The position numbers and the translations under genes were made by a program. DNA of 64,000 nucleotides, taken from a bacterium (GTDB lineage: Bacteria; SZUA-182; DTGQ01). A model generated the notes under the pieces. The model worked only from the letters and a program-made list of their open reading frames with translations, did no database searches and was not told the origin of the DNA. Positions 14,652-27,815 of this stretch are shown here, piece by piece; positions within the stretch are counted from its first letter, which is position 1; each line of letters opens with the position of its first letter. The stretch covers positions 1 through 64,000 of the forward strand of contig JBFLZW010000087.1 in NCBI GenBank assembly GCA_040755755.1, in the 5' to 3' direction.

Positions 14652-15818
14652 TCAGGATATCGCGCAAGCTGCGGCCATTTTCCTTCTTCCTCCGTGCAGG
14701 GGGTGTCCCGATGCATGCTCCTGCAGAAGCTTGAGGGCTGAAAAGATGCGGCCCTTGGCCTTATCCCAGAGGATCACCGGGTCATCATGGGAATTTTTCG
14801 GCTGAGTCTGCTGAACATATTGAACAGCTATTTTCCCCGCCAGATCCTGCAATTGTTTCTCTTCCATTGAAGATATCTGGCTATGAAGGTAAGATGGAAT
14901 CCACTGAATCAAACCGGCAATTTCCGAATCGAGACCTGCCGGGATATGATCTGCAGGAGAGGGTGGTTTTGTAATCGGGTCATCGGGGATGGGTAATGCT
15001 TTCTCCCGCTCGAACATCGAGGCTATGGCCTGAACCATGTCAGCATCAATCTGTCTGACCTGATTGGTTTCTCCTGCCTTCAGGCACAGCTTGGCAAGTT
15101 TATTGACCAGCCGTGGAACACCACGGGAACATGTCCAGATAACCTCGGCTGCCTCTTTGGTGAAAATCTCCGGCGATCCGCCGCAAAGCCGGATGCGGTG
15201 GGCAAGATACTGCCTGATATCTTCCGGCCCGCTCAATCCCTTGATACGGCAGTAGACACCGATTCTCTGATAGAGGTTTTCGAGGGACCTGGACTCAAGC
15301 CGCCTCGCCAGTTCCTTCTGGCCAGCCAGGACGAAGATGACCATATTCTGCTGATCGTCCTGCAAGTTAGTCATAAGCCGCAGATTGTTTAACTGGGCAG
15401 TGGACATGACATTGGCCTCATCGATGAAGATAACCACCTTTTGACCCTGATTGGCACATTCAAAAAGGATAGCGTTGAATTCCTCCATGAGCTGATCCTT
15501 AAAATGAGTAGCCACCTTTTTATTTCTCAACTGGCCGATGATCTCACGCATAAACTGCGACAGGGACAGCTCCGGATTGGTGATGAAGGCAATCCGGTAT
15601 TTCTCTGGATTCAGCTCATTTAAAATAACGCGCAAACTCAGGGTCTTCCCTGTCCCGATATCTCCAACCAGCACAGCCAGACAATCATTTCCATCTTCGA
15701 TAGCAAACAGGATTTCGGAAACAGCATCTTCCACCGAACTGTTTTGACTCCAATAAAGGCCGGGGTCCGGCACATTATCAAAAGGAGCTTTTTGCATTCC
15801 CCAGTATTCGTAATACAT
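14652..15818 (-). CDS. ExeA-like AAA+ ATPase
   Basis: A 388-aa protein starting MYYEYWGMQKAPFDNVPDPG, the classical ExeA/GspA opening. Walker A is GDIGTGKT (about 52-59), Walker B is VVIFIDEA (about 127-134), and an arginine-finger-type region follows (IRQYLAHRIRLCGG). A very strong ribosome site (AAGGAGG) precedes the ATG. No exeB partner, peptidoglycan-binding domain or secretin is linked. It follows a small HTH gene by 19 bp. ExeA-type ATPases occur both in secretion assembly and in transposition modules (TniB/TnsC relatives); the neighbouring operator-like array makes the latter worth considering. Confidence 0.85.
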   Translation of the reverse strand: MYYEYWGMQKAPFDNVPDPGLYWSQNSSVEDAVSEILFAIEDGNDCLAVLVGDIGTGKTLSLRVILNELNPEKYRIAFITNPELSLSQFMREIIGQLRNKKVATHFKDQLMEEFNAILFECANQGQKVVIFIDEANVMSTAQLNNLRLMTNLQDDQQNMVIFVLAGQKELARRLESRSLENLYQRIGVYCRIKGLSGPEDIRQYLAHRIRLCGGSPEIFTKEAAEVIWTCSRGVPRLVNKLAKLCLKAGETNQVRQIDADMVQAIASMFEREKALPIPDDPITKPPSPADHIPAGLDSEIAGLIQWIPSYLHSQISSMEEKQLQDLAGKIAVQYVQQTQPKNSHDDPVILWDKAKGRIFSALKLLQEHASGHPLHGGRRKMAAACAIS

Positions 15819-15837: not shown

Positions 15838-16299
15838 TCAATCTTCCGCTGTCTTAGTGAGAGAATTCGAAGATATCCGCCACGTGCGCCCGATTTTCAA
15901 ACCCTGCAAACTGCCCCGATGGAGTCGTCGATAGATGATATCTTTGGATACCTGGCAGATTCTGGCCGCTTCCTCGACCGTCAGAAAATCCTGATTGGAC
16001 TGATCCGAATCGGCCAGTTCCAGGGAAATGCGCATTTTCAGGGGTTTTTCGAGTCCCGAGACGATTTCCACCATAAACTGATGCCTGTTGATTTGAAGGA
16101 GGCTCACCTTCTCACGAATCAGAGAGCCTAAAGATCGAGATTGTACTTCAGGAGCTGGCAATTCTCGATGAGCGGGTGATGATTCCATTCCGGGAAGGGG
16201 CATACATGCTTCCCTTCTCGATGGAGCGGGATCGGTTTGTAGGGAAAAGAAGGGCTTCTGCTGTTCCCATCGCCGGCGGGCAATACTGATCTTCTCCAT
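15838..16299 (-). CDS. Small helix-turn-helix (excisionase/MerR-like) DNA-binding protein
   Basis: A 153-aa protein whose last 50 residues form an HTH_17/excisionase-type domain (FLTVEEAARICQVSKDIIYRR, then a wing GLKIGRTWRIS). The N-terminal hundred residues are Pro/Ser-rich and unrecognised. AAAGGAG precedes the ATG. It is the first gene of a pair with the ExeA-like ATPase. Directly upstream lies a 550-bp stretch with five related palindrome-like sites, which could be its binding sites. Confidence 0.75.
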   Translation of the reverse strand: MEKISIARRRWEQQKPFFSLQTDPAPSRREACMPLPGMESSPAHRELPAPEVQSRSLGSLIREKVSLLQINRHQFMVEIVSGLEKPLKMRISLELADSDQSNQDFLTVEEAARICQVSKDIIYRRLHRGSLQGLKIGRTWRISSNSLTKTAED

Positions 16300-16848
16300 A
16301 TGGTCTATCTCCTTTGCACAAACTCATGGGTTGAATAAAAGGCCTCTTGTTCTGGAAAATGATGCAAAAGGGATGCCACGTGAGAGAAAAGAAGGTATTC
16401 CCCGATCCTGACAGAGAAAAAGCAAGAAAAACAATCAGCTACCGGATAAAAAGAGATCGCGGGAAAATCTCTCTCACCGCAGCCGATTTCACTTTTGTAT
16501 ATCCTGATTTCATTTTTGTCATATCAACCGAAAAATGAGCTCAATTTTGTAATCGCCTGGCAATCAACCGCATCTTTCTGAAAATATTGAGAGGCCTTTT
16601 ATTTCCCCGGTGCGCTCAGCGAGACGCCACACCTGCCATTAAGTACTGCAAAAGCAATGCCACTTTTGATTTCTCCCGCGACCATGAGGAGTACCTTATT
16701 GAAAAATAACGTGTTCAAATCAGGAGTAAGTTTATCTTCGGAAAAACGCCAACCCTGGGACCAGATTACAGATTTGTAATCGGACAACAGAAAGGAATTA
16801 CAATTTTGGTATTCGGTAACCATTCATCACAGGGCAAAACCTCTCTCC
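16300..16848. promoter_or_regulatory. Non-coding regulatory stretch with repeated operator-like sites
   Basis: No convincing gene is present. Five related sites lie at 16485-16503, 16506-16525, 16537-16555, 16764-16781 and 16795-16816. The best is a perfect inverted repeat, GATTACA-N4-TGTAATC (16764-16781); the common core is CA-N-TTTTGT. The first three sites start 21 and 31 bp apart, i.e. on one helix face. A perfect 14-bp inverted repeat AATAAAAGGCCTCT occurs at 16336-16349 and 16591-16604. A direct repeat TGCAAAAG-N2-ATGCCAC occurs near 16363 and 16647. Confidence 0.6.
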
Positions 16849-16890
16849 CAAAAAAAGAGGCAGGGGCCTTGGTAAAGGCCCCTGCCTCTT
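16849..16890 (-). terminator. Strong rho-independent terminator after the cohesin-bearing gene
   Basis: A 15-bp perfect stem (AGAGGCAGGGGCCTT paired with AAGGCCCCTGCCTCT) with a 4-nt loop is followed on the minus strand by seven T's. It lies 29 bp past the stop at 16919. Confidence 0.93.
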
Positions 16891-16918
16891 TCAGTCAGTT
16901 CTTTGGATGTCAAAAAAG

Positions 16919-19030
16919 CTATTTCTGAAAAAATCCCGGACGAATCGCTTTGATAAAGCATTCGTACCAGTGATCACCCTCTGATTTCTTGGGCGGCTTC
17001 GTGGTAGTCGCGGTTGTTGTTGTCTGTTCGGGCTCCTCCACTACTTCCTCCTCAACAGCGGTAAACCAGTCACTCGTATGCTTGGTCGTTACCCTGGCAA
17101 AGAGTAGCTTGTCATGATATCTCAGCTCGATACCTTCCCCCCAGGAGGTATTGGGGATAAAAAGCTCAGCCTTCTTTCCAGCTCGCTGGAAATAGATCCC
17201 GTATCGCTTGGGGGCAGTTGATTCAGGTTTCACATAATCAGGAGATGCCGGATTGTGTGACTCCTCGGTTCTCAAACAATGAGCGTAGATTTCCTCCAGG
17301 GTGGCAGATTCAAGAGAATCAGGCAATGAAGTGTCAGGATAATAATGCTGCTTGAGGTAAGTTTGAAGCCCTTTGTGCAAGGGGACCTCAATGATGATCG
17401 GACCTGCTGAAGCCCTTACCTCTTCAGGCGGATCATACTCAAACGATTTTCCGTTTTCATCCGTGAAATCGATTTTAACAACAGTAATGTCAGTCTTTGC
17501 TTCAAGAGGCTTAAACTCGACCGCCAGATTAAACCTCGTTTGACTCAGTTTATTCGGGTCAATATAATCACCTGCCTGACCCGCTGCCGGGGCAGTCCCC
17601 TTAAGGTAGTTGAGACTCATTTCATTGGCCTTGAATTCGGTTACGATTTCCTGATGGGTATTCTGATTAAGGTAAAAATTACCCTTGACCGTCATTTCAC
17701 CCACTGAGGCAATTTCACTCCCGGTGAAGGTGTTGGTGGCCTGGGCAATACTCACCCTGGTCATGTCAATACTCCCGGCAGAAACGGGCACCTCCACTTC
17801 AATTGTACTCGTAAACCTTTCGACCCCTTCGGTTAATGTTCCTGTTTCAAAGGAAATCGTATATACTATTTTGTTACTCTTGATCTCCTTTGTTACATAA
17901 TAAGCATTGGGATCGATAGTCATGGAGATGTATTTTGCCTGCCCGAATAAGCCGCCTCCGGTTGGAGGGGTAATGATTTGCGGGAAACCGTAAGACACAA
18001 ATGCACTGGCACTTGGACTATAAACTCCAGTTCGCGGATTCAATGTCACTGAGGGACCTGCCTTGCCATCCCTTCCGGTAAAATTCACCGCCAGGGTATT
18101 GGCGTCATTTTCAGGCCAGCTAACTATCTGCCCCCTGCTATTTCTATATCCAAAACCGAGCTCCAGCTTTTTCTCCGTTGTGACCTTTCGGACTACAGCA
18201 ATCCGTGACTTGATCGCTGTCATTGCAAAGTCGTAGTTCGGCTTGGATGTTTCGGCAGGACCTATTACGATCTTCTGCAATGTGCTGCTTTGGTAGCCAA
18301 TGCTCTCCACGACCGCCCAGTAGGTATTGCCCGGTTTCAATTCAAAAGTACTGTAGCCGGAAATGTTCGTATCCTTTTTACGCTCTATCGTTCTGTCTGC
18401 ACTCCAGAGTCTGATGGTATACGGATGATTCTCCGGCAGACCAGTCGGTTTAATATTCACCGTACACAAGACATCGGAAAAATTGACTTTTACCGTTGTG
18501 GGGGTCAATTCCTGAATCTGATTCTGGCCGACAAAGCCTTCAATGGTGATGTAGGTACTTTTACCGGCTTTGGCCATACTATCAACATCTTTGTTAATAG
18601 TAAAAGGAAGGGTCAGGAACTTGCCTGCTGGCTGGGCAGTATCCAGAGACCATGCCTCCAGCATATTTTCCGCTTTCATTCTGACACAGGCACCGATCAT
18701 GACGGCATTGGCCCTCGTCCCTCCATCGGTCCGTTCAATTACCTTGTTTATCGCCAGGTGCAGGCTATCATATGATGTAATGTCACTTCCCTGTAAATTA
18801 CCCAGGGTCACGAAATTCGGGTCATAGGACACGCTCAGGGTAAAGTGCTGTACCCCAACATACGGGGAAAATCTGAGGGGTATGTTTACTGCGGTGTCAC
18901 TTACTCTGACGTCGATCGACGGGTTCTCTGCAAGCAGACAGTAAGTTGTCGCTGCCCATCCGGAGCTGCAGACCAAATGCAGTACCAGACCTAAAATCAT
19001 TGGTATTGACCAAAATTTTATTTTAGCCAA
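16919..19030 (-). CDS. Secreted protein with N-terminal cohesin-like domain
   Basis: I start at TTG 19030, because GAGAGGAGGA lies 7 nt upstream and the product then opens with a perfect signal peptide (MAKIKFWSIPMILGLVLHLVC..., cleavage after GWA). The open frame extends to 19081. The 703-aa product carries a cohesin-like beta-sandwich at about 30-175 (VNIPLRFSPYVGVQHFTLSVSYDPNF, later GKFLTLPFTINKDV). A CarboxypepD-regulatory-like domain follows at about 180-270 (TIRLWSADRT...SGYSTFELKPG). After that come unassigned beta-rich modules and a Thr-rich linker near the C-terminus (EQTTTTATTTKPPKK). The neighbour immediately upstream ends in a dockerin-like module, so the pair may interact outside the cell. 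A strong terminator follows. Confidence 0.72.
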   Translation of the reverse strand: MAKIKFWSIPMILGLVLHLVCSSGWAATTYCLLAENPSIDVRVSDTAVNIPLRFSPYVGVQHFTLSVSYDPNFVTLGNLQGSDITSYDSLHLAINKVIERTDGGTRANAVMIGACVRMKAENMLEAWSLDTAQPAGKFLTLPFTINKDVDSMAKAGKSTYITIEGFVGQNQIQELTPTTVKVNFSDVLCTVNIKPTGLPENHPYTIRLWSADRTIERKKDTNISGYSTFELKPGNTYWAVVESIGYQSSTLQKIVIGPAETSKPNYDFAMTAIKSRIAVVRKVTTEKKLELGFGYRNSRGQIVSWPENDANTLAVNFTGRDGKAGPSVTLNPRTGVYSPSASAFVSYGFPQIITPPTGGGLFGQAKYISMTIDPNAYYVTKEIKSNKIVYTISFETGTLTEGVERFTSTIEVEVPVSAGSIDMTRVSIAQATNTFTGSEIASVGEMTVKGNFYLNQNTHQEIVTEFKANEMSLNYLKGTAPAAGQAGDYIDPNKLSQTRFNLAVEFKPLEAKTDITVVKIDFTDENGKSFEYDPPEEVRASAGPIIIEVPLHKGLQTYLKQHYYPDTSLPDSLESATLEEIYAHCLRTEESHNPASPDYVKPESTAPKRYGIYFQRAGKKAELFIPNTSWGEGIELRYHDKLLFARVTTKHTSDWFTAVEEEVVEEPEQTTTTATTTKPPKKSEGDHWYECFIKAIRPGFFQK

Positions 19031-19085
19031 GGCTAAATCCTCCTCTCTTATTTTCTTCAGCGATTCGCACAATTTTTTCAACTAC

Positions 19086-20687
19086 CTACTCTCCATCTAA
19101 CACATCTACCAGACTGTTTATTGGGTTACGGTCAGGATCAGCAACAGAATCCTTCAAAATGGCATCGATATCGTCATCGTCGATGACCTCGTCGCCAAGA
19201 CCACGGACACGATCAGCGGCAATGATCTGAGGGCCGTTTAACTCAACCAGTCCTGCATGTGCCTTGACAATTTCCAGCGCATTATAGGCAGTAATATTTC
19301 CCGCCTTGGTAACGTCACCCTCCTTGCAGCCATAATAAAGGGCCAGGATCGCCTCGCTATTGCGATCGACCCGAGGTACCGCATATTCACCGGTGGAAGT
19401 ATAATCCATACGGTCTACGAACACCTCATACTCGTCAGGAACTGAGGCCATCATGGATTTAATCAGGTAGTTAAGACCCCAGTAGGTACCTTTGTAGAGA
19501 TCGCGTTTTTTCCAACTGGTCTGAAAATTGTTGGCCATGGCCCTGATTCCGTAGCATTGATCCTCCAGGGAGATTCCGTTCCAGGGGGATAATCGTCCGT
19601 CTCTCGTCTCTCCTCCCCAGTAAAATAAACCGCACGATGGATCGACCTTGGTTGAGGTAAACTGGAGGCCCTTCAGATAGGCCAATCCCGCCTTGAGATT
19701 AGCCTTGCGTGTGGCATCGTGAGAGTAGAACCGCTTGAGCACTTCGACCGCCTTGGCCTGCCCCGCGGTCCGCACATAGTTACTGCTCCCGCTCTGATGG
19801 TAGAAAAATCCGCCTGCGCTGTCCAGGCAGGTACTACTGCAGAGTTTATCCATTAAATCATCGGCCCACTGATCGAACGTTGTACCTACCAGGCCGGATG
19901 TTCTGAGACGGTATAATTTGGCGGCTTCAACCCACGTGGCTAACTGCCAGATTTTGAGCTGCTTGAGATTGATATCGGCACTATTATAAAGATCATATAC
20001 CTTTGCTGCGGTATCGTACTTTTGAACAAAAGCCCGCAGGCCCTTCAGACCCGCCTGATAGTACTCGCTCTTATCAGCGGTATCAACAGCCGGAACCTTG
20101 GACAGAGCGTGAAGGAAGATGATATCCGTCGATACCAGGTTAGGATCGGATTCAGCCCTCTCAACCAGCTTATCCCCTGCCTTGCAGGCAGCAGCAAGAT
20201 ATGAGCTTCCCTGACGCCTTTGGATTATAAGACTACCTTCACACCGATCCGCTGTAACATCCATGTCATAGGCTGCCAGCAAGCTCAGGCCGACGATTCC
20301 ATAGTTGTTTGGCAGCAGATTAGCCGGATTTTTCGTCGAGTCGCTCAAATCTCTCGGCCATCCATTGTTCCCGTTCGTCCCGGTTATCTGGATCTGCACC
20401 AGCCTGTCAGCTACATTGGTCACAATGGCGGATATATCAGCCATAGTCTGAGACCTTCTTCCCGGAGTGACCGTGACCTGATTGGCATAGAGCTCTTTGG
20501 CTCTGCTCGGACTGACCGGTGTATTGTCTCTATCTATTGGCTGCACTTCTGTCTGTCCAGGGTCAATGGTAGCTCCCACTCTGGCACGATAAATCGGCTC
20601 TTCGGCTGATGGGGCTTTCAGGGTAGTTCCTAAAAATGCAGGAATAACAGCCAGAAATAAAAGTGTTCGAAGCCATCTACTTTTCAC
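19086..20687 (-). CDS. Secreted alpha-helical (toroid-like) protein with C-terminal dockerin-like module
   Basis: A GTG start at 20687 is preceded by GAGGAGGA. The 533-aa product has a signal peptide, a linker, and a helical region (about 95-440) with repeated W/Y-rich helices (e.g. IWQLATWVEAAKLYR, GLFYWGGETRDGR, DQCYGIRAMA) resembling alpha/alpha-toroid glycan-acting enzymes. No catalytic family can be named. Residues about 457-525 form a dockerin-like pair: GDVTKAGNITAYNALEIV and ADRVRGLGDEVIDDDDIDAIL. The second repeat keeps its acidic residues; the first is partly degenerate. The cohesin-bearing gene follows 55 bp downstream. Confidence 0.7.
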   Translation of the reverse strand: MKSRWLRTLLFLAVIPAFLGTTLKAPSAEEPIYRARVGATIDPGQTEVQPIDRDNTPVSPSRAKELYANQVTVTPGRRSQTMADISAIVTNVADRLVQIQITGTNGNNGWPRDLSDSTKNPANLLPNNYGIVGLSLLAAYDMDVTADRCEGSLIIQRRQGSSYLAAACKAGDKLVERAESDPNLVSTDIIFLHALSKVPAVDTADKSEYYQAGLKGLRAFVQKYDTAAKVYDLYNSADINLKQLKIWQLATWVEAAKLYRLRTSGLVGTTFDQWADDLMDKLCSSTCLDSAGGFFYHQSGSSNYVRTAGQAKAVEVLKRFYSHDATRKANLKAGLAYLKGLQFTSTKVDPSCGLFYWGGETRDGRLSPWNGISLEDQCYGIRAMANNFQTSWKKRDLYKGTYWGLNYLIKSMMASVPDEYEVFVDRMDYTSTGEYAVPRVDRNSEAILALYYGCKEGDVTKAGNITAYNALEIVKAHAGLVELNGPQIIAADRVRGLGDEVIDDDDIDAILKDSVADPDRNPINSLVDVLDGE

Positions 20688-20936: not shown

Positions 20937-21548
20937 TTACCAGTAAGGGCTTGCCCATGCCCATGGTGACTGCTGTCCATACGAGGCATTCCAGGGCAAA
21001 TTGATAATATACGGACCTCCCTGATACGGCAAATAGCTATTGGGCGCACTTTGAGAAGGATTTACTACCAGGCCGGAGAGCCGTCCTTCCACCCGTTCCC
21101 TCAATCGTGCCCCGCTGGCGGTTATCCCCTGAGAGCCGACATTCACTGGCAGGATACTTAAGGCGATAACTTCACCCCGCCCCACTTTGCGGGTTCTTTG
21201 ACCTGAAACCGCTTCGATCGACCCGGACAGGCATCTGAATTCCCTGTTTGTTTCTGACTCATAGGCCATCTCGTCACCCTTGTCGAGAATCAGTTGGGCA
21301 TTCTCAACTTCAATAACGGATGTACCTTCCAGGGATATAATTCTTGCCTGAGGAGTGAGAGGAAGGTCTTTTTCCCCTTTCTCACAGAAAATTTTTTTCC
21401 CCTCAGCAGTAATCAAAAGCAATTTCCCGGTATTTACCCTCACCATGCCCGTAACCATTCCCTGGATTGCAAAGGCCGGAGCAGACAATGCCGCCGCGAG
21501 CAATACAATCACCAACACAATACCTGATTTTTCCCTTCTCTTTCTCAT
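20937..21548 (-). CDS. Secreted FecR-like or beta-rich small protein
   Basis: AAGGAGGTAAC precedes the ATG, so this start is firm. The 203-aa product has a signal peptide (LVIVLLAAALSAPAFA) followed by beta-rich sequence (GMVRVNTGKLLLITAEGKKIF, GEVIALSILPVNVGSQG), loosely like FecR domains. The C-terminus is rich in Pro/Tyr/Trp and ends SPWAWASPYW. No firm family assignment is possible. It sits between the dockerin gene and the large paralogous surface proteins, and is probably part of the same extracellular programme. Confidence 0.65.
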   Translation of the reverse strand: MRKRREKSGIVLVIVLLAAALSAPAFAIQGMVTGMVRVNTGKLLLITAEGKKIFCEKGEKDLPLTPQARIISLEGTSVIEVENAQLILDKGDEMAYESETNREFRCLSGSIEAVSGQRTRKVGRGEVIALSILPVNVGSQGITASGARLRERVEGRLSGLVVNPSQSAPNSYLPYQGGPYIINLPWNASYGQQSPWAWASPYW

Positions 21549-22045: not shown

Positions 22046-24301
22046 TCAATACGCCCACCAGGGCTGGACATCGATGGGGAACACCGACTGTGTCCATCCG
22101 CCCCGCGGGTCGAAAGCGGTAATTTCCACAAAATAGAAGCCGGGTAAATTGGTCTGGAAGGTCCAGTAAGCTCTGGCTATGCCGTCATCGTCCTTATCAA
22201 GGATAATGGATCCGATGTTGCAGGAGTAATACAGCTCATCTCCATCCGGATCATGAAAGTCGAGCATGGGCGGACCGAGAATAAAAAGCTGGCCTGCCTT
22301 GATAACCAAGGGTGCAGCATCATTAAAATCTCCCATGATATACGGGCTATGGTTGAGCCAGGTTCCGGGAGAGGTGCATAAAATACCGATGTGGGAGGTG
22401 GCAGATAATCCCCGGGAATCGGTCACCTGCACCCGGACATGAGCTACTCCCTCGAATTGGGGAGTAAAGGTAATCTCTCCGGTGTGAGGATTGATAATCG
22501 ACTCTGACCAGGGGCCATACTGGTAGGAAGGCAATCCGCTGATGGTTGCACTCCAGGTGAGATTCAACTGATCCGCGGTGAACGATCCATCCGGACTGAA
22601 CCAGTCCTGATCCGTAGCCACCATCTGGTAGCGGTAGACTTCTCCCACAGCCACTGCCTGCTCATCGACATTTTCCATCTTGGGCGGGTAATTGGTCACT
22701 GGATAGTTAGTCACTGAAAGAGGAAAGGTTTCAAGATCCGTCCGGCCATGCGCATCCTGTACTCTTACCGTCACTACCAGGTCTTCCATGACCTGGGGAA
22801 CGAAGAAGAGGCGGGCGATATCCGGCCAGGTTTTAAAGCCCAGACCGAGAAGGTAATTCCCGTAAGCAGCTACAGCTTTCGGATGATAAATTCTCACCCC
22901 GCCGGTACCGGGCTTGAGGTGAGGAATGGTTTCAGGGTCATAGTCAGAAATCCGTTCAGGATCCCGGGCTATCAGTGCAGGATCATACGGAGTAGGCAGA
23001 TCCACCATGCAGGGCTTGTAGGGACTCAGCCAGAGCTGAGGGATCAGGGCAATGATATTGGGATCGCAGTAATCGGCAATTCCGTCAGCATTGCTGTCCC
23101 TGTTGGCTATGGGCACTTCGCTGAGGAGGCTGGCTGGTGCTCCGTGTGCTCCCCATCCCCCGACGGTAGCTGTCCAGAACAGCCGGTCACGGGCTGGATC
23201 GATTTGCTCCGGATCGCTGATGTGGCCACTGTGGCCCTCATCCTGTGCGCTGCGGATAAAGATATCGGTCAGCTTCCTGACATAATTCGGGTCAGGCTCC
23301 GATCCTCCTCCCATCTCGTATTCATTTTGCCAGATATCGAGAAACACCCGATAAGCCAGATCCGGGTCCCTGGCATAGCAGTAATACTCGAATGGGCTGA
23401 AAAGCTGGACAAACTGAGGTCCGATCTTGAAGAAATAGGGCGGCTCCCCTTCGATAGGAACAGTATCTTTCATCAGCCAGATATTGTCAAGGCGATATTT
23501 ATTGCCGCAGATTATGATCCTGTTCACTTTTCCGAGCACAAGGTCAGGGTCCTGGCTCGCCCTGTTGACTATGGCCGAGAGGTCGGCTTTCAGGGTATGC
23601 CAGGAGCCATCCTGATAGTTTCGGCCCATTGGCACTTGAATCATGGCGGGGTTGGTATCCTGGGAGTTTCGAAAGTCAATCGTCCCCGCTCTTACCATAT
23701 CCAGCCCGGTCTGCCCATCCATGCCAACGGGCGTAAAACTGATGGCGAAGGGATAGTTTTCCCTGTCCGGGTCGCTTTCAGCTTTTGACCTGGTAGTTCC
23801 CACGACAATCAACCGCCACTGGGCAAATTGCTCGATCTCCAATGGCGCCCGGATGCTGACCCAGAGCACGTTGGCCTGTACGCCTTCCTGTCCGGTATCA
23901 GGATCTTTGATCGCCTTTTGAATCTGTAATTGCCAGCCATTCATTGGTAAGAAGACCGAGTAGGGCATCTCCACATCCAGAACCCGGCTTATGATTCTGG
24001 AATCGATCAAAGTCCGCAAACTTCCATAGCCGATGCCTGCGCCCCAGACCGGATAAGGAGGTTCGCTGGCTGTCCATCCATGATTCCGGGGACTGTCCCA
24101 GTATTCGAAGTTATCTACCAGAACATCTCCCCGCTCGTTTGAAACAGGTGTTACCAAGGGAGTATCGGTGCTGAGTACATGGTCATAAGTGAGGTATTGA
24201 GCCTGAACAGGATTACCTCTGCCGAAAACTCCTACTGCCAGAATAATTACAATGAATGTCATCTCTCCAAGCCTTTTCCCTCTGAACCTTCTCTTCTCCA
24301 T
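22046..24301 (-). CDS. Large secreted multidomain protein, paralogue 2 (CBM-like plus cadherin-like repeats)
   Basis: The start at ATG 24301 is set by GAGGAG five bases upstream; the open frame runs to 24325. The 751-aa product has a signal peptide and then a beta-sandwich region (about 45-275). This begins VLVDNFEYWDSPRNHGW and closes with SWHTLKADLS...KYRLDNIWLM, a pattern typical of carbohydrate-binding or galactose-binding-like folds. C-terminal cadherin/PKD-like repeats follow (MENVDEQAVAVGEVYRYQMV, GEITFTPQFEGVAHVRVQV, FHDPDGDELYYSC). It ends with PWWAY. A paralogue lies upstream on the same strand. No dockerin, LPXTG or PEP-CTERM signal is seen. Confidence 0.75.
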   Translation of the reverse strand: MEKRRFRGKRLGEMTFIVIILAVGVFGRGNPVQAQYLTYDHVLSTDTPLVTPVSNERGDVLVDNFEYWDSPRNHGWTASEPPYPVWGAGIGYGSLRTLIDSRIISRVLDVEMPYSVFLPMNGWQLQIQKAIKDPDTGQEGVQANVLWVSIRAPLEIEQFAQWRLIVVGTTRSKAESDPDRENYPFAISFTPVGMDGQTGLDMVRAGTIDFRNSQDTNPAMIQVPMGRNYQDGSWHTLKADLSAIVNRASQDPDLVLGKVNRIIICGNKYRLDNIWLMKDTVPIEGEPPYFFKIGPQFVQLFSPFEYYCYARDPDLAYRVFLDIWQNEYEMGGGSEPDPNYVRKLTDIFIRSAQDEGHSGHISDPEQIDPARDRLFWTATVGGWGAHGAPASLLSEVPIANRDSNADGIADYCDPNIIALIPQLWLSPYKPCMVDLPTPYDPALIARDPERISDYDPETIPHLKPGTGGVRIYHPKAVAAYGNYLLGLGFKTWPDIARLFFVPQVMEDLVVTVRVQDAHGRTDLETFPLSVTNYPVTNYPPKMENVDEQAVAVGEVYRYQMVATDQDWFSPDGSFTADQLNLTWSATISGLPSYQYGPWSESIINPHTGEITFTPQFEGVAHVRVQVTDSRGLSATSHIGILCTSPGTWLNHSPYIMGDFNDAAPLVIKAGQLFILGPPMLDFHDPDGDELYYSCNIGSIILDKDDDGIARAYWTFQTNLPGFYFVEITAFDPRGGWTQSVFPIDVQPWWAY

Positions 24302-24504
24302 AACTTCTCCTCTTCGCTGGGGCATTATCGCTTCCTCGTACTACCCACATCCTCACTCTTCAATCACACGTCGAGAACTTTTCTCCTGTTTCCGGGGGCC
24401 GGTAAACCACTTTGTCCAATAACTCTCGATATACGTTTTCCCGTGTATAATTCCTATACACCGGTCAACGAATAGAAATTATGCATGAAAATGGGTGATG
24501 ATTT

Positions 24505-25219: not shown

Positions 25220-27427
25220 TTACATCGACCACCAGGGCCGGACCTCGAGGTGGATGGTAAATACCGTAAAGGCTCCGTGGGTATCCATGGCAAAGATGTT
25301 GGCCGCGTAGAACCCTGGAAACTGGGTCTGAAATGACCAGATAGCATGACCGTTGGCATCTACTCCGATAGCGCCGATATCACAGGTGTAATAGACCTTG
25401 TCTCCATCCGGATCCACAACATCCAGGGTCGGTTCAGATAAAATAAACATCTCTCCTGCCCGGCAAACTTGAGGATGGTCCCAATCACCCAGTACAACCG
25501 GCGGATGATTCAGCCAGGTCCCCCTGTTGACGCAATGGAGGACAAACCGTCCGATATTGAACAACCCCCGGTCATCCTGAACGGTTACCACCACGGGGTA
25601 GACTCCCTCAAACTGCGGGGTAAAACGGATCAGTCCGGTGCGGGGATCGATAAGCTGCTCATTCCAGGGGCCAAATTGATAAGATGGCAGACTGGCGATG
25701 GTCATACTCCAGGTTAAATTGAATTGATCGAATCTGGGATGGGTCGGTGAGTAGATGCAGCTATCCGGATCGACAGCGGAAAGGGCATATTCAAAAACTT
25801 CACCGACGTAGGCGATTTGATCATCCAGGTCCTCCATGCAGGGAGGGTAATTTTCAACCGGATAGTTGACCACCGAGACCGGAAAGGTTTCTATATCGTT
25901 GGTTCTCCCGTCGCTTACCTCCACGGTAACGATCAGGTCTTCCAGTACCTGAGGGCAAAATTCCAGGACAGCTACTCTCGGCCAATATTTATAGCCGGCA
26001 TGCTGGAGGGCCAGCTCGATGTTCCTCACCCGCTCAGGAGGATAATAGAAGGTACCTTCCGAGCCAAGGCTGCAGCCGCAGGCATGTTCCACCACGGGAT
26101 CTCCCTCATCACCCGTCAGCCGGTAGTAGGCCGGGAGAAAGAGAGGATATTCGTCATCGGGATTGACTTCCAGAGGGCGGATCATACCTGGTGCCAGGCT
26201 CCCGTGCGCTCCTCCTTTGCCGATATACGCATAAAAGCGAAGCATGTCTTCCTCATGGTTGTTCCTGCTTGTTCTCATATTACAGTCAGCCAGCACTGGC
26301 CTGGTGGTATCGATAAGGGCTGCATACCTGGTTCTGAGCCTGAGGTAATCCTTATCGGGATCGGCATCCCAGTCGCGGGCGATGTTAGGATCGATGAATC
26401 CAGCGCGGGAATCCTGGATATAAGCATCACAGATCTCATTGGGGTCAATCAGGACATCGTTCTGGTTGCAGACATCATCAGTGGCATAGACAAGCCTTTG
26501 AGTCCGGGTAAATAACTGAGCAAAGAGAGGGCCGATCTTAAAGATGTAGGGAGGCTCTTCGGCTCTATGATCATGGGTGTGGAAGATGATATCATCCAGC
26601 CGGTACCGGTTCCCCTGAATGGTTATAAAATCGATGCTGCGCAGATACTTGCCGGTTGTTCCGAGGGATTGGGTAATAGTATCCTGGATATCGACATAAA
26701 TGGTGTGCCAGGTCCAATCAGCGTACTGTCGTCCGATTTCTACATTAATCACCCCAGGTTTTTTGGGGTCATCGGTTGGATCGCTGACCAGGACCGGGTC
26801 CATTTGATAATCATCACAGCCTGGACAGTTCTCTCGCGGAATCAGACGGATAGCATAGTAATATACTTTGTCCCGGTAGAGGGGATCCTTGAGCGTGCCC
26901 TGAATTATAAAGGTAAAGCTGTCAAACATTTCAACAGTCAGGGGAGCCCGGATTTTAAAACTCAGGTGAGTGCATTGCGGCGATTGCGAGGGATTATTGT
27001 TCGGATCCGGGTTGACAAAATCTGCAGGATCGGGACTGGCAAGGGCTTTCGAAATGGCGAATCTTTGAAAGTTTGGAAGAAACACCGAAGGAGGCATATA
27101 GACATTCAGTACCCTGCTTACTTCAATGGTATCCAGGACCGTCATCAGTCTGCCATAGCCGATATCCTCCCCCCAGATGGGGTAAGGTGGTTCATTCGTG
27201 GTCCATCCGTGATTGAGCGGATTGTCCCAGTATTCAAAATTATCAACAATTACATCACCGTTCGGCAGTGAAAAAGGAAGAGACGTAGCCTGGTAGAGTT
27301 GTTCCGGCTGTGCCCAGGTGTCACCGGATGAAACCGCAACCTGGTGGCTGAAAATCAATAAAAACAGCAAAATCATCATTGAAAAAGTTATTATCGTGAG
27401 TTTGATATTCCTGCCAGTTTTTACCAT
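25220..27427 (-). CDS. Large secreted multidomain protein, paralogue 1 (CBM-like plus cadherin-like repeats)
   Basis: The ATG at 27427 has GAGGAG 10 nt upstream and gives a proper signal peptide (MVKTGRNIKLTIITFSMMILLFLLIF); the open frame extends to 27499. The 735-aa product matches paralogue 2 along its length: VIVDNFEYWDNPLNHGWT near the N-terminus, a closing YRLDDIIFH in the sandwich domain, cadherin-like ENYPPCMEDLDDQIAYVGEVF, and terminal RPWWSM. The region between (about 280-480) has more cysteines than the paralogue and is less conserved. It is probably an extracellular glycan-binding or structural protein. Function is unproven. Confidence 0.75.
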   Translation of the reverse strand: MVKTGRNIKLTIITFSMMILLFLLIFSHQVAVSSGDTWAQPEQLYQATSLPFSLPNGDVIVDNFEYWDNPLNHGWTTNEPPYPIWGEDIGYGRLMTVLDTIEVSRVLNVYMPPSVFLPNFQRFAISKALASPDPADFVNPDPNNNPSQSPQCTHLSFKIRAPLTVEMFDSFTFIIQGTLKDPLYRDKVYYYAIRLIPRENCPGCDDYQMDPVLVSDPTDDPKKPGVINVEIGRQYADWTWHTIYVDIQDTITQSLGTTGKYLRSIDFITIQGNRYRLDDIIFHTHDHRAEEPPYIFKIGPLFAQLFTRTQRLVYATDDVCNQNDVLIDPNEICDAYIQDSRAGFIDPNIARDWDADPDKDYLRLRTRYAALIDTTRPVLADCNMRTSRNNHEEDMLRFYAYIGKGGAHGSLAPGMIRPLEVNPDDEYPLFLPAYYRLTGDEGDPVVEHACGCSLGSEGTFYYPPERVRNIELALQHAGYKYWPRVAVLEFCPQVLEDLIVTVEVSDGRTNDIETFPVSVVNYPVENYPPCMEDLDDQIAYVGEVFEYALSAVDPDSCIYSPTHPRFDQFNLTWSMTIASLPSYQFGPWNEQLIDPRTGLIRFTPQFEGVYPVVVTVQDDRGLFNIGRFVLHCVNRGTWLNHPPVVLGDWDHPQVCRAGEMFILSEPTLDVVDPDGDKVYYTCDIGAIGVDANGHAIWSFQTQFPGFYAANIFAMDTHGAFTVFTIHLEVRPWWSM

Positions 27428-27815
27428 ACCTGTTTTTCTCCTCAAGGACTTTTCTCGAACCTGAATTGTTGTAGAATATTTTTTACCAAGATTAATCATC
27501 GCATAATATTGATGCGTTATCGTATTGATGAAGCATGAGTAAACAAGTTTATTCCGGGGAAAATTTCAGTTTGGTAATCCAAAAGGAGGGACAATCGGAA
27601 GTAACGCACTGCCGATATACTTCTCTTTTTGACTATGGAGGGCTGGACAGTCCTCCAATACAAATCAAACCATACTTCCGTATAATGCTTGCTGGGCCAC
27701 TTCTTTCAGAACCACCAAAATCGTACTACCTATTCACCAATAAAAATGATATATAAAGGGTTATTCTTATGTCAAGTAAAATTTGTCAAAATTTGCTTTC
27801 AGCGGAGAAGAGGAG
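27428..27815. other. Intergenic stretch, promoter of the surface-protein block
   Basis: About 390 bp lies between the surface paralogue and the membrane hydrolase, both on the minus strand. It should contain the promoter for 27427 and downstream genes. No supported gene or strong hairpin was seen. Confidence 0.4.

Follow-up and report, generated by a model that had tools for sequence, protein, structure and literature searches.

Do two adjacent genes of an uncultured bacterial lineage encode a cohesin and a dockerin that recognize each other, and would such a pair stand apart from the other cohesins and dockerins of its genome? The question was raised by contig JBFLZW010000087.1, of which positions 1 to 64,000 were analysed (hereafter the window). 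An earlier note had described, on the minus strand, a gene for a secreted protein with a dockerin-like C-terminus followed by one for a secreted protein with a cohesin-like N-terminus. Profile comparisons indicate that both domains are real but diverged. We consider it somewhat probable that the two proteins form a dedicated non-cellulosomal cohesin–dockerin pair, in which a 703-residue surface receptor holds a 533-residue docked cargo. The features on which this reading draws are as follows.

19086–20687, minus strand: 533-residue protein, predicted to be exported, with a helical, toroid-like domain and a C-terminal divergent dockerin; GTG start with GAGGAGG upstream
19326–20606, minus strand: helical, toroid-like region, residues ~28–454 of the 533-residue protein (ortholog alignment, model, sub-threshold profile)
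19140–19328, minus strand: divergent dockerin, residues ~454–516 (profile–profile comparison, alignment); the loop of repeat 1 is DVTKAGNITAYN, and repeat 2, which holds an insertion, is ADRVRGLGDEVIDDDD
16919–19030, minus strand: 703-residue protein, predicted to be exported, with an N-terminal cohesin-like domain; TTG start with AGGAGGA upstream
18470–18949, minus strand: cohesin-like domain, residues ~28–187 of the 703-residue protein (profile–profile comparison; G004 ortholog above the PF00963 cut-off)
17000–17590, minus strand: C-terminal region, residues ~480–677, common to larger proteins of the class (matches at 23–37% identity)
16922–16963, minus strand: CFI-box-like putative sorting tail ECFIKAIRPGFFQK (invariance of CFI in the orthologs)

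Conserved adjacent genes encode diverged cohesin-like and dockerin-like domains

Orthologs of the pair were found in four of the nine genomes of the class, from two families: the window's own genome (G000) and genomes of the same genus (G001), the same family (G003) and the same order (G004). In all four, the two genes are adjacent and their order is unchanged. The orthologs of the 533-residue protein share 64% (G001), 38% (G003) and 31% (G004) identity with it. The ortholog of the 703-residue protein in G001 is 57% identical, and orthologs also occur in G003 and G004. A scan of the whole genome collection with the two-ortholog alignment recovered the congeneric genome only.

The cohesin-like domain was compared, profile to profile, with 25 cohesins of the same genome. 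The match had P = 4.9e-8 when the four orthologs were used and P = 3.6e-4 with the window and G001 alone; in 60 column shuffles, run for the window alone and for the window plus G001, no score was as high. In addition, the G004 ortholog scored 33.9 bits against the Pfam cohesin model PF00963, whose cut-off is 24.1. The dockerin-like region matched 28 dockerins of the same genome over both repeats, with P = 3.5e-7 (four orthologs) and P = 1.7e-4 (window and G001), and again 0 of 60 shuffles did as well for either input. Crossed comparisons of cohesin with dockerin were negative. These data confirm the N-terminal cohesin-like domain of the second protein and the two C-terminal dockerin-like repeats of the first, as the earlier note had proposed.

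Other searches also bore on the dockerin. The G004 ortholog reached a sub-threshold 12.3 bits against PF00404 (cut-off 22.9). In a sequence search of the PDB, its best dockerin was that of ScaB (4uyq), aligned over both repeats at a non-significant E of 0.16–0.57; PDB sequence searches otherwise returned noise only. When a profile of the 533-residue protein was run over 386 genomes, unrelated dockerin proteins were matched through the C-terminal region. That four genomes of two families have kept the pair supports cohesin homology, dockerin homology, adjacency and a dedicated complex.

The dockerin departs from the main set of its genome

Canonical dockerins carry D or N at positions 1, 3, 5 and 12 of two 12-residue Ca2+ loops. 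The window dockerin deviates from this pattern. Loop 1 presents D458, T460, A462 and N469, so that D458 and N469 are the only ligands kept. The D/N ligand at position 5 is gone in all four orthologs, and the second loop, which has an insertion in the window, is canonical in G004 only. The best-preserved Ca2+ loop, DRNGDGDILSGD, likewise belongs to G004, the most distant ortholog. Nine residues covering the core of both repeats are invariant in the four orthologs (D458, V459, G463, A467, A470, L471, G479, I510 and L511).

The main set of the genome looks different. Most of its 28 aligned dockerins follow the consensus GDLNGDGxITPADALIAFRCYL..CPxCADVNxDGxVTPADALCLF..SCLD, in which the cysteines are conserved. 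The window family instead reads GDVTKAGNITAYNALEIVKAHAGL..AADRVRGLGDEVIDDDDIDAIL and lacks the P-x-D and the four cysteines that mark the main set. Dockerin contact positions have been placed at 11, 12, 18 and 19 (in the numbering of PMC4728124, if the Ca2+ loop is set to begin at 2). At these positions the window family has A, Y, V and K, whereas the main set has mainly P, x, F and R/K. This difference in contact residues suggests separate recognition, and the drift from the main set is consistent with private recognition. A self-contained complex is plausible because the window dockerin differs from the main set of its genome.

The putative receptor and its CFI tail

The 703-residue protein comprises the cohesin-like domain, a carboxypeptidase-regulatory-like region (sub-threshold), a class-specific C-terminal β region, a Thr/Pro/Lys linker and a CFI tail. 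The C-terminal region at residues ~480–677 recurs in larger proteins of the class, and in G001 what comes after it there is a canonical dockerin.

All four cohesin partners terminate in C-F-I plus a few residues; in the window, the motif begins 13 residues from the end. Many proteins of the class have similar tails (GGCFINSLWP, SSCFISALLY, KSCFISSL, GGCFINTLMRHFR and others), and the linker before such tails is usually acidic, Ser-rich or Gly-rich. The tail of the G003 ortholog scored 19.1 bits against NF041763, the 'CFI-box putative sorting motif' model (cut-off 15.9), and was the best match in G003. Among 14 control genomes, however, 11 also had matches to this model at E ≤ 10, one of them over the cut-off; a weak match therefore carries little information, and what speaks for the CFI tail is its C-terminal position and the conserved linker. 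A literature search on the CFI-box motif found no publication. We infer that the tail may anchor the cohesin protein at the cell surface.

Several exported proteins of the genome, including cohesin proteins, have aromatic-rich C-termini: WFTWF, SWYLLY, LTSWSF and WASPYW (L042:2801-6001, L018:3135-9104, L049:4521-5624 and window 20937-21548).

The putative cargo

The earlier note had also proposed that the dockerin is fused to a toroid-like helical domain. A model of low confidence was helical, and the toroid assignment gained weak support. In the 386-genome profile search, the helical domain drew L057, a 350-residue squalene-cyclase-like protein, and a profile match between the two covered 94 columns (P = 5.2e-7); L057 itself scores 17.4 bits against PF13243, below the cut-off. 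A match of the helical domain to the C5-epimerase C-terminal family PF06662 was also sub-threshold, at 14.2 bits. Together, the L057 and PF06662 matches are consistent with an α/α toroid. Six residues of the domain, D188, E254, D276, R306, E315 and D376, are invariant in the four orthologs and are compatible with an active site. The domain may be an enzyme or a ligand binder.

Cohesins and dockerins elsewhere in the genome

The genome of the window comprises 5.26 Mb in 88 contigs, and the tests rest on the regions searched. Searches with PF00404 and PF00963 located 29 dockerin and 25 cohesin places, and missed the window locus. Most of the dockerins lie at the extreme C-terminus, have conserved cysteines and end near SCLD. 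Among the matches, no protein had more than two Pfam-detectable cohesins. Fourteen of the 21 cohesin proteins also carry a dockerin, mostly directly behind the cohesin, an arrangement that might allow head-to-tail chaining or self-binding.

The 35 cohesin and dockerin genes also tend to be neighbours, with four same-strand relations at distances of up to 1 kb where random placement would give 0.13; this speaks for a dedicated pair. Two other clusters combine the modules. In one (C27; L048:3627-7607), which is among these four relations and follows the plan of the window pair, the gene for a dockerin-bearing CotH/LTD protein precedes by ~60 nt that for a cohesin protein with the CF-type tail SCFLTSISHY. 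The other (C67; L042:959-9073) is a run of three genes encoding a dockerin protein (β-helix/HYR), a double-cohesin protein (HYR) and a second dockerin protein (MopE).

Fifteen dockerin-bearing proteins were scanned, one of them partly. Their other domains were of the β-helix, HYR, MopE, NHL, CotH, von Willebrand, C25 peptidase, polysaccharide deacetylase (one protein) and prismane/CO-dehydrogenase types; no glycoside hydrolase family was found among the 15. The last type is represented by L025:3674-5968 (G000:C55:103673-105967), which scored 482 bits against PF03063, carries a Tat-like sequence, SRRNFIKLA, at its N-terminus and ends in a dockerin. These features suggest that a metalloenzyme whose type is usually found in the cytoplasm is here exported and docked.

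Weighing of the proposed arrangement

In the arrangement that we favour, the 703-residue protein would be a cell-surface receptor. Processing or anchoring would take place at its C-terminal CFI tail, and its β domains would form a stalk, so placed that the N-terminal cohesin faces outward. The 533-residue helical protein, probably an α/α toroid, would be the cargo, held by its own C-terminal dockerin. The pair would have drifted from the main cohesin and dockerin set of the genome, losing Ca2+ ligands and changing contact residues. We infer that the two modules may bind each other and that the pair may be private.

Several observations weigh against this arrangement. The profile search that had been suggested as a check failed for the window proteins themselves: neither PF00963 with the 703-residue protein nor PF00404 with the 533-residue protein gave a match even at E ≤ 1, and in direct scans with Pfam and NCBIfam both proteins stayed under every curated threshold. 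The G003 cohesin region, taken alone, was equalled by 7 of 60 shuffles. AlphaFold2 models built from two-sequence alignments were of low confidence, with a mean predicted local distance difference test (pLDDT) score of 41 for the cohesin and 34 for the helical domain. Structure searches with these models returned generic multi-domain β proteins and no cohesin for the former, and nothing significant for the latter. The window tail had no match to NF041763 at E ≤ 10. Loss of Ca2+ usually disrupts dockerin folding, and the Ca2+ loops are degenerate here. In G003, the dockerin-bearing gene (L034:6475-8013) is interrupted by an in-frame TGA within the conserved sequence DQSA*ISAMA, which could reflect decay, sequence error or recoding. 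Finally, the excess of cohesin and dockerin neighbours given above was calculated against random placement, which takes no account of any general clustering of genes for secreted proteins.

The modules could be genuine yet not private, belonging to an exchangeable genome-wide cohesin–dockerin network in which adjacency reflects shared regulation only. Cross-binding may indeed occur, as the rest of the genome has 25 cohesin and 29 dockerin places, and in G004 the pair is adjoined by two further cohesin genes and then by type II secretion genes. We nevertheless regard such a network as unlikely to account for the pair: the signature found in nearly all other dockerins of the genome is missing from that of the window, and the window cohesin has diverged too far for the Pfam model.

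It is less probable still that the modules are vestiges of a working ancestral pair that has lost its Ca2+ ligands and its binding, leaving two proteins that now act separately. The erosion of the loops fits this idea, in that G004 is best preserved, the window has two ligands in loop 1 and an insertion in loop 2, and G003 has lost more and acquired the in-frame stop. However, the nine invariant residues span the core of both repeats, and synteny has been kept. That there is no cohesin–dockerin relation at all, and that a generic Ig- or adhesin-like β sandwich merely neighbours a coincidental EF-hand-like helical C-terminus, would accord with the failed Pfam matches and the generic structural hits, but is strongly disfavoured and very improbable given profile–profile scores beyond all shuffles with negative cross-controls, the G004 cohesin score, and the unrelated dockerin proteins drawn through exactly the C-terminal region.

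A more specific form of the dedicated pair can be envisaged, in which recognition is one-to-one and calcium-independent, a new toroid family is displayed through a CFI-box-anchored receptor, and the locus is one of several receptor–cargo operons in the class. We hold this fuller version to be tentative and rather doubtful.

Gene arrangement and neighbouring genes

The layout given in the earlier note, with both genes on the minus strand, 55 bp apart and served by a single strong terminator, agrees with the open reading frames (ORFs). The longest ORF of the cohesin gene, 16919–19081, encodes 720 residues from the first TTG. The TTG at 19030 is preferred as the start because it is preceded by a good ribosome site, AGGAGGA, and it lies 55 nt beyond the stop of the 533-residue gene. 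The N-termini of both proteins resemble signal peptides, as judged by eye, without a predictor. Two further features flank the genes.

16846–16892 (about), minus strand: intrinsic terminator downstream of the cohesin gene; a hairpin with almost perfect pairing, then T7
20937–21548, minus strand: 203-residue exported protein, FecR-like by eye (ORF)

The terminator hairpin, which a promoter/terminator scan had missed, was confirmed by folding (−36.4 kcal/mol, z = −6.1); none of 200 shuffled sequences folded as well. An Rfam scan of window positions 14–28 kb gave no matches. The two genes are probably co-transcribed.

In the genomes of the window, G001 and G003, the 203-residue gene is conserved immediately upstream of the pair; the G004 contig begins 35 bases upstream of the pair, too close for such a gene to be seen. 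The protein had no significant Pfam or NCBIfam match, and its likeness to FecR lacks profile support. Farther upstream, 22046–24325 and 25220–27499 encode two paralogous-looking 759-residue exported proteins with Ig-like regions and common motifs. On the other side of the pair, 14652–15818 encodes an AAA ATPase resembling that of the XrtA/PEP-CTERM system (155.9 bits, below the cut-off of 324.5), adjoined by an excisionase-like helix-turn-helix gene (15838–16299).

Discussion

The pair is not a new category, since non-cellulosomal cohesin–dockerin systems are already known (PMC9012536, which cites Peer et al. 2009, FEMS Microbiol Lett 291:1-16; PMC8542988). We found no description of such a diverged pair in the literature. 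As in the non-cellulosomal proteins already described, among them those of anaerobic methanotrophic (ANME) archaea, the exported proteins that carry cohesin and dockerin here have no cellulose-degrading partners; for ANME it has also been suggested that functional proteins are attached to the cell surface in this way (PMC9012536). What differs here is the orthologous, adjacent two-gene pair, the strong divergence of the modules and the CFI tail on the cohesin partner.

The cellulosome, for example that of Clostridium thermocellum, likewise has the cohesin in the anchored partner and the dockerin at the C-terminus of the docked one. Here, by contrast, the partner has one cohesin and the Ca2+ loops are degenerate. 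A cellulosome was rejected: the genome matches included no multi-cohesin scaffoldin, and the scanned dockerin proteins no glycoside hydrolase. The cellulosome-like system of Candidatus Stygibacter (PMC8542988) is comparable in belonging to an uncultured lineage and in its exported dockerin proteins, including a C25 peptidase, but it has a 3,755-residue multi-cohesin scaffoldin, whereas at most two Pfam-detectable cohesins per protein were seen in the window genome. With the proteins described by NF041763, the cohesin partner shares a short C-terminal CFI after a linker on an exported protein; it differs in that its tail falls below the model cut-off, and no processing enzyme was identified.

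Although cohesins and dockerins outside cellulosomes are widespread, their partners are rarely known; a conserved adjacent pair offers a concrete, testable prediction of partners. The CFI tail ties a putative sorting motif to a receptor–cargo arrangement. Should binding persist despite the degenerate loops, the pair would illustrate how much erosion the Ca2+ scaffold of a dockerin can tolerate and still function.

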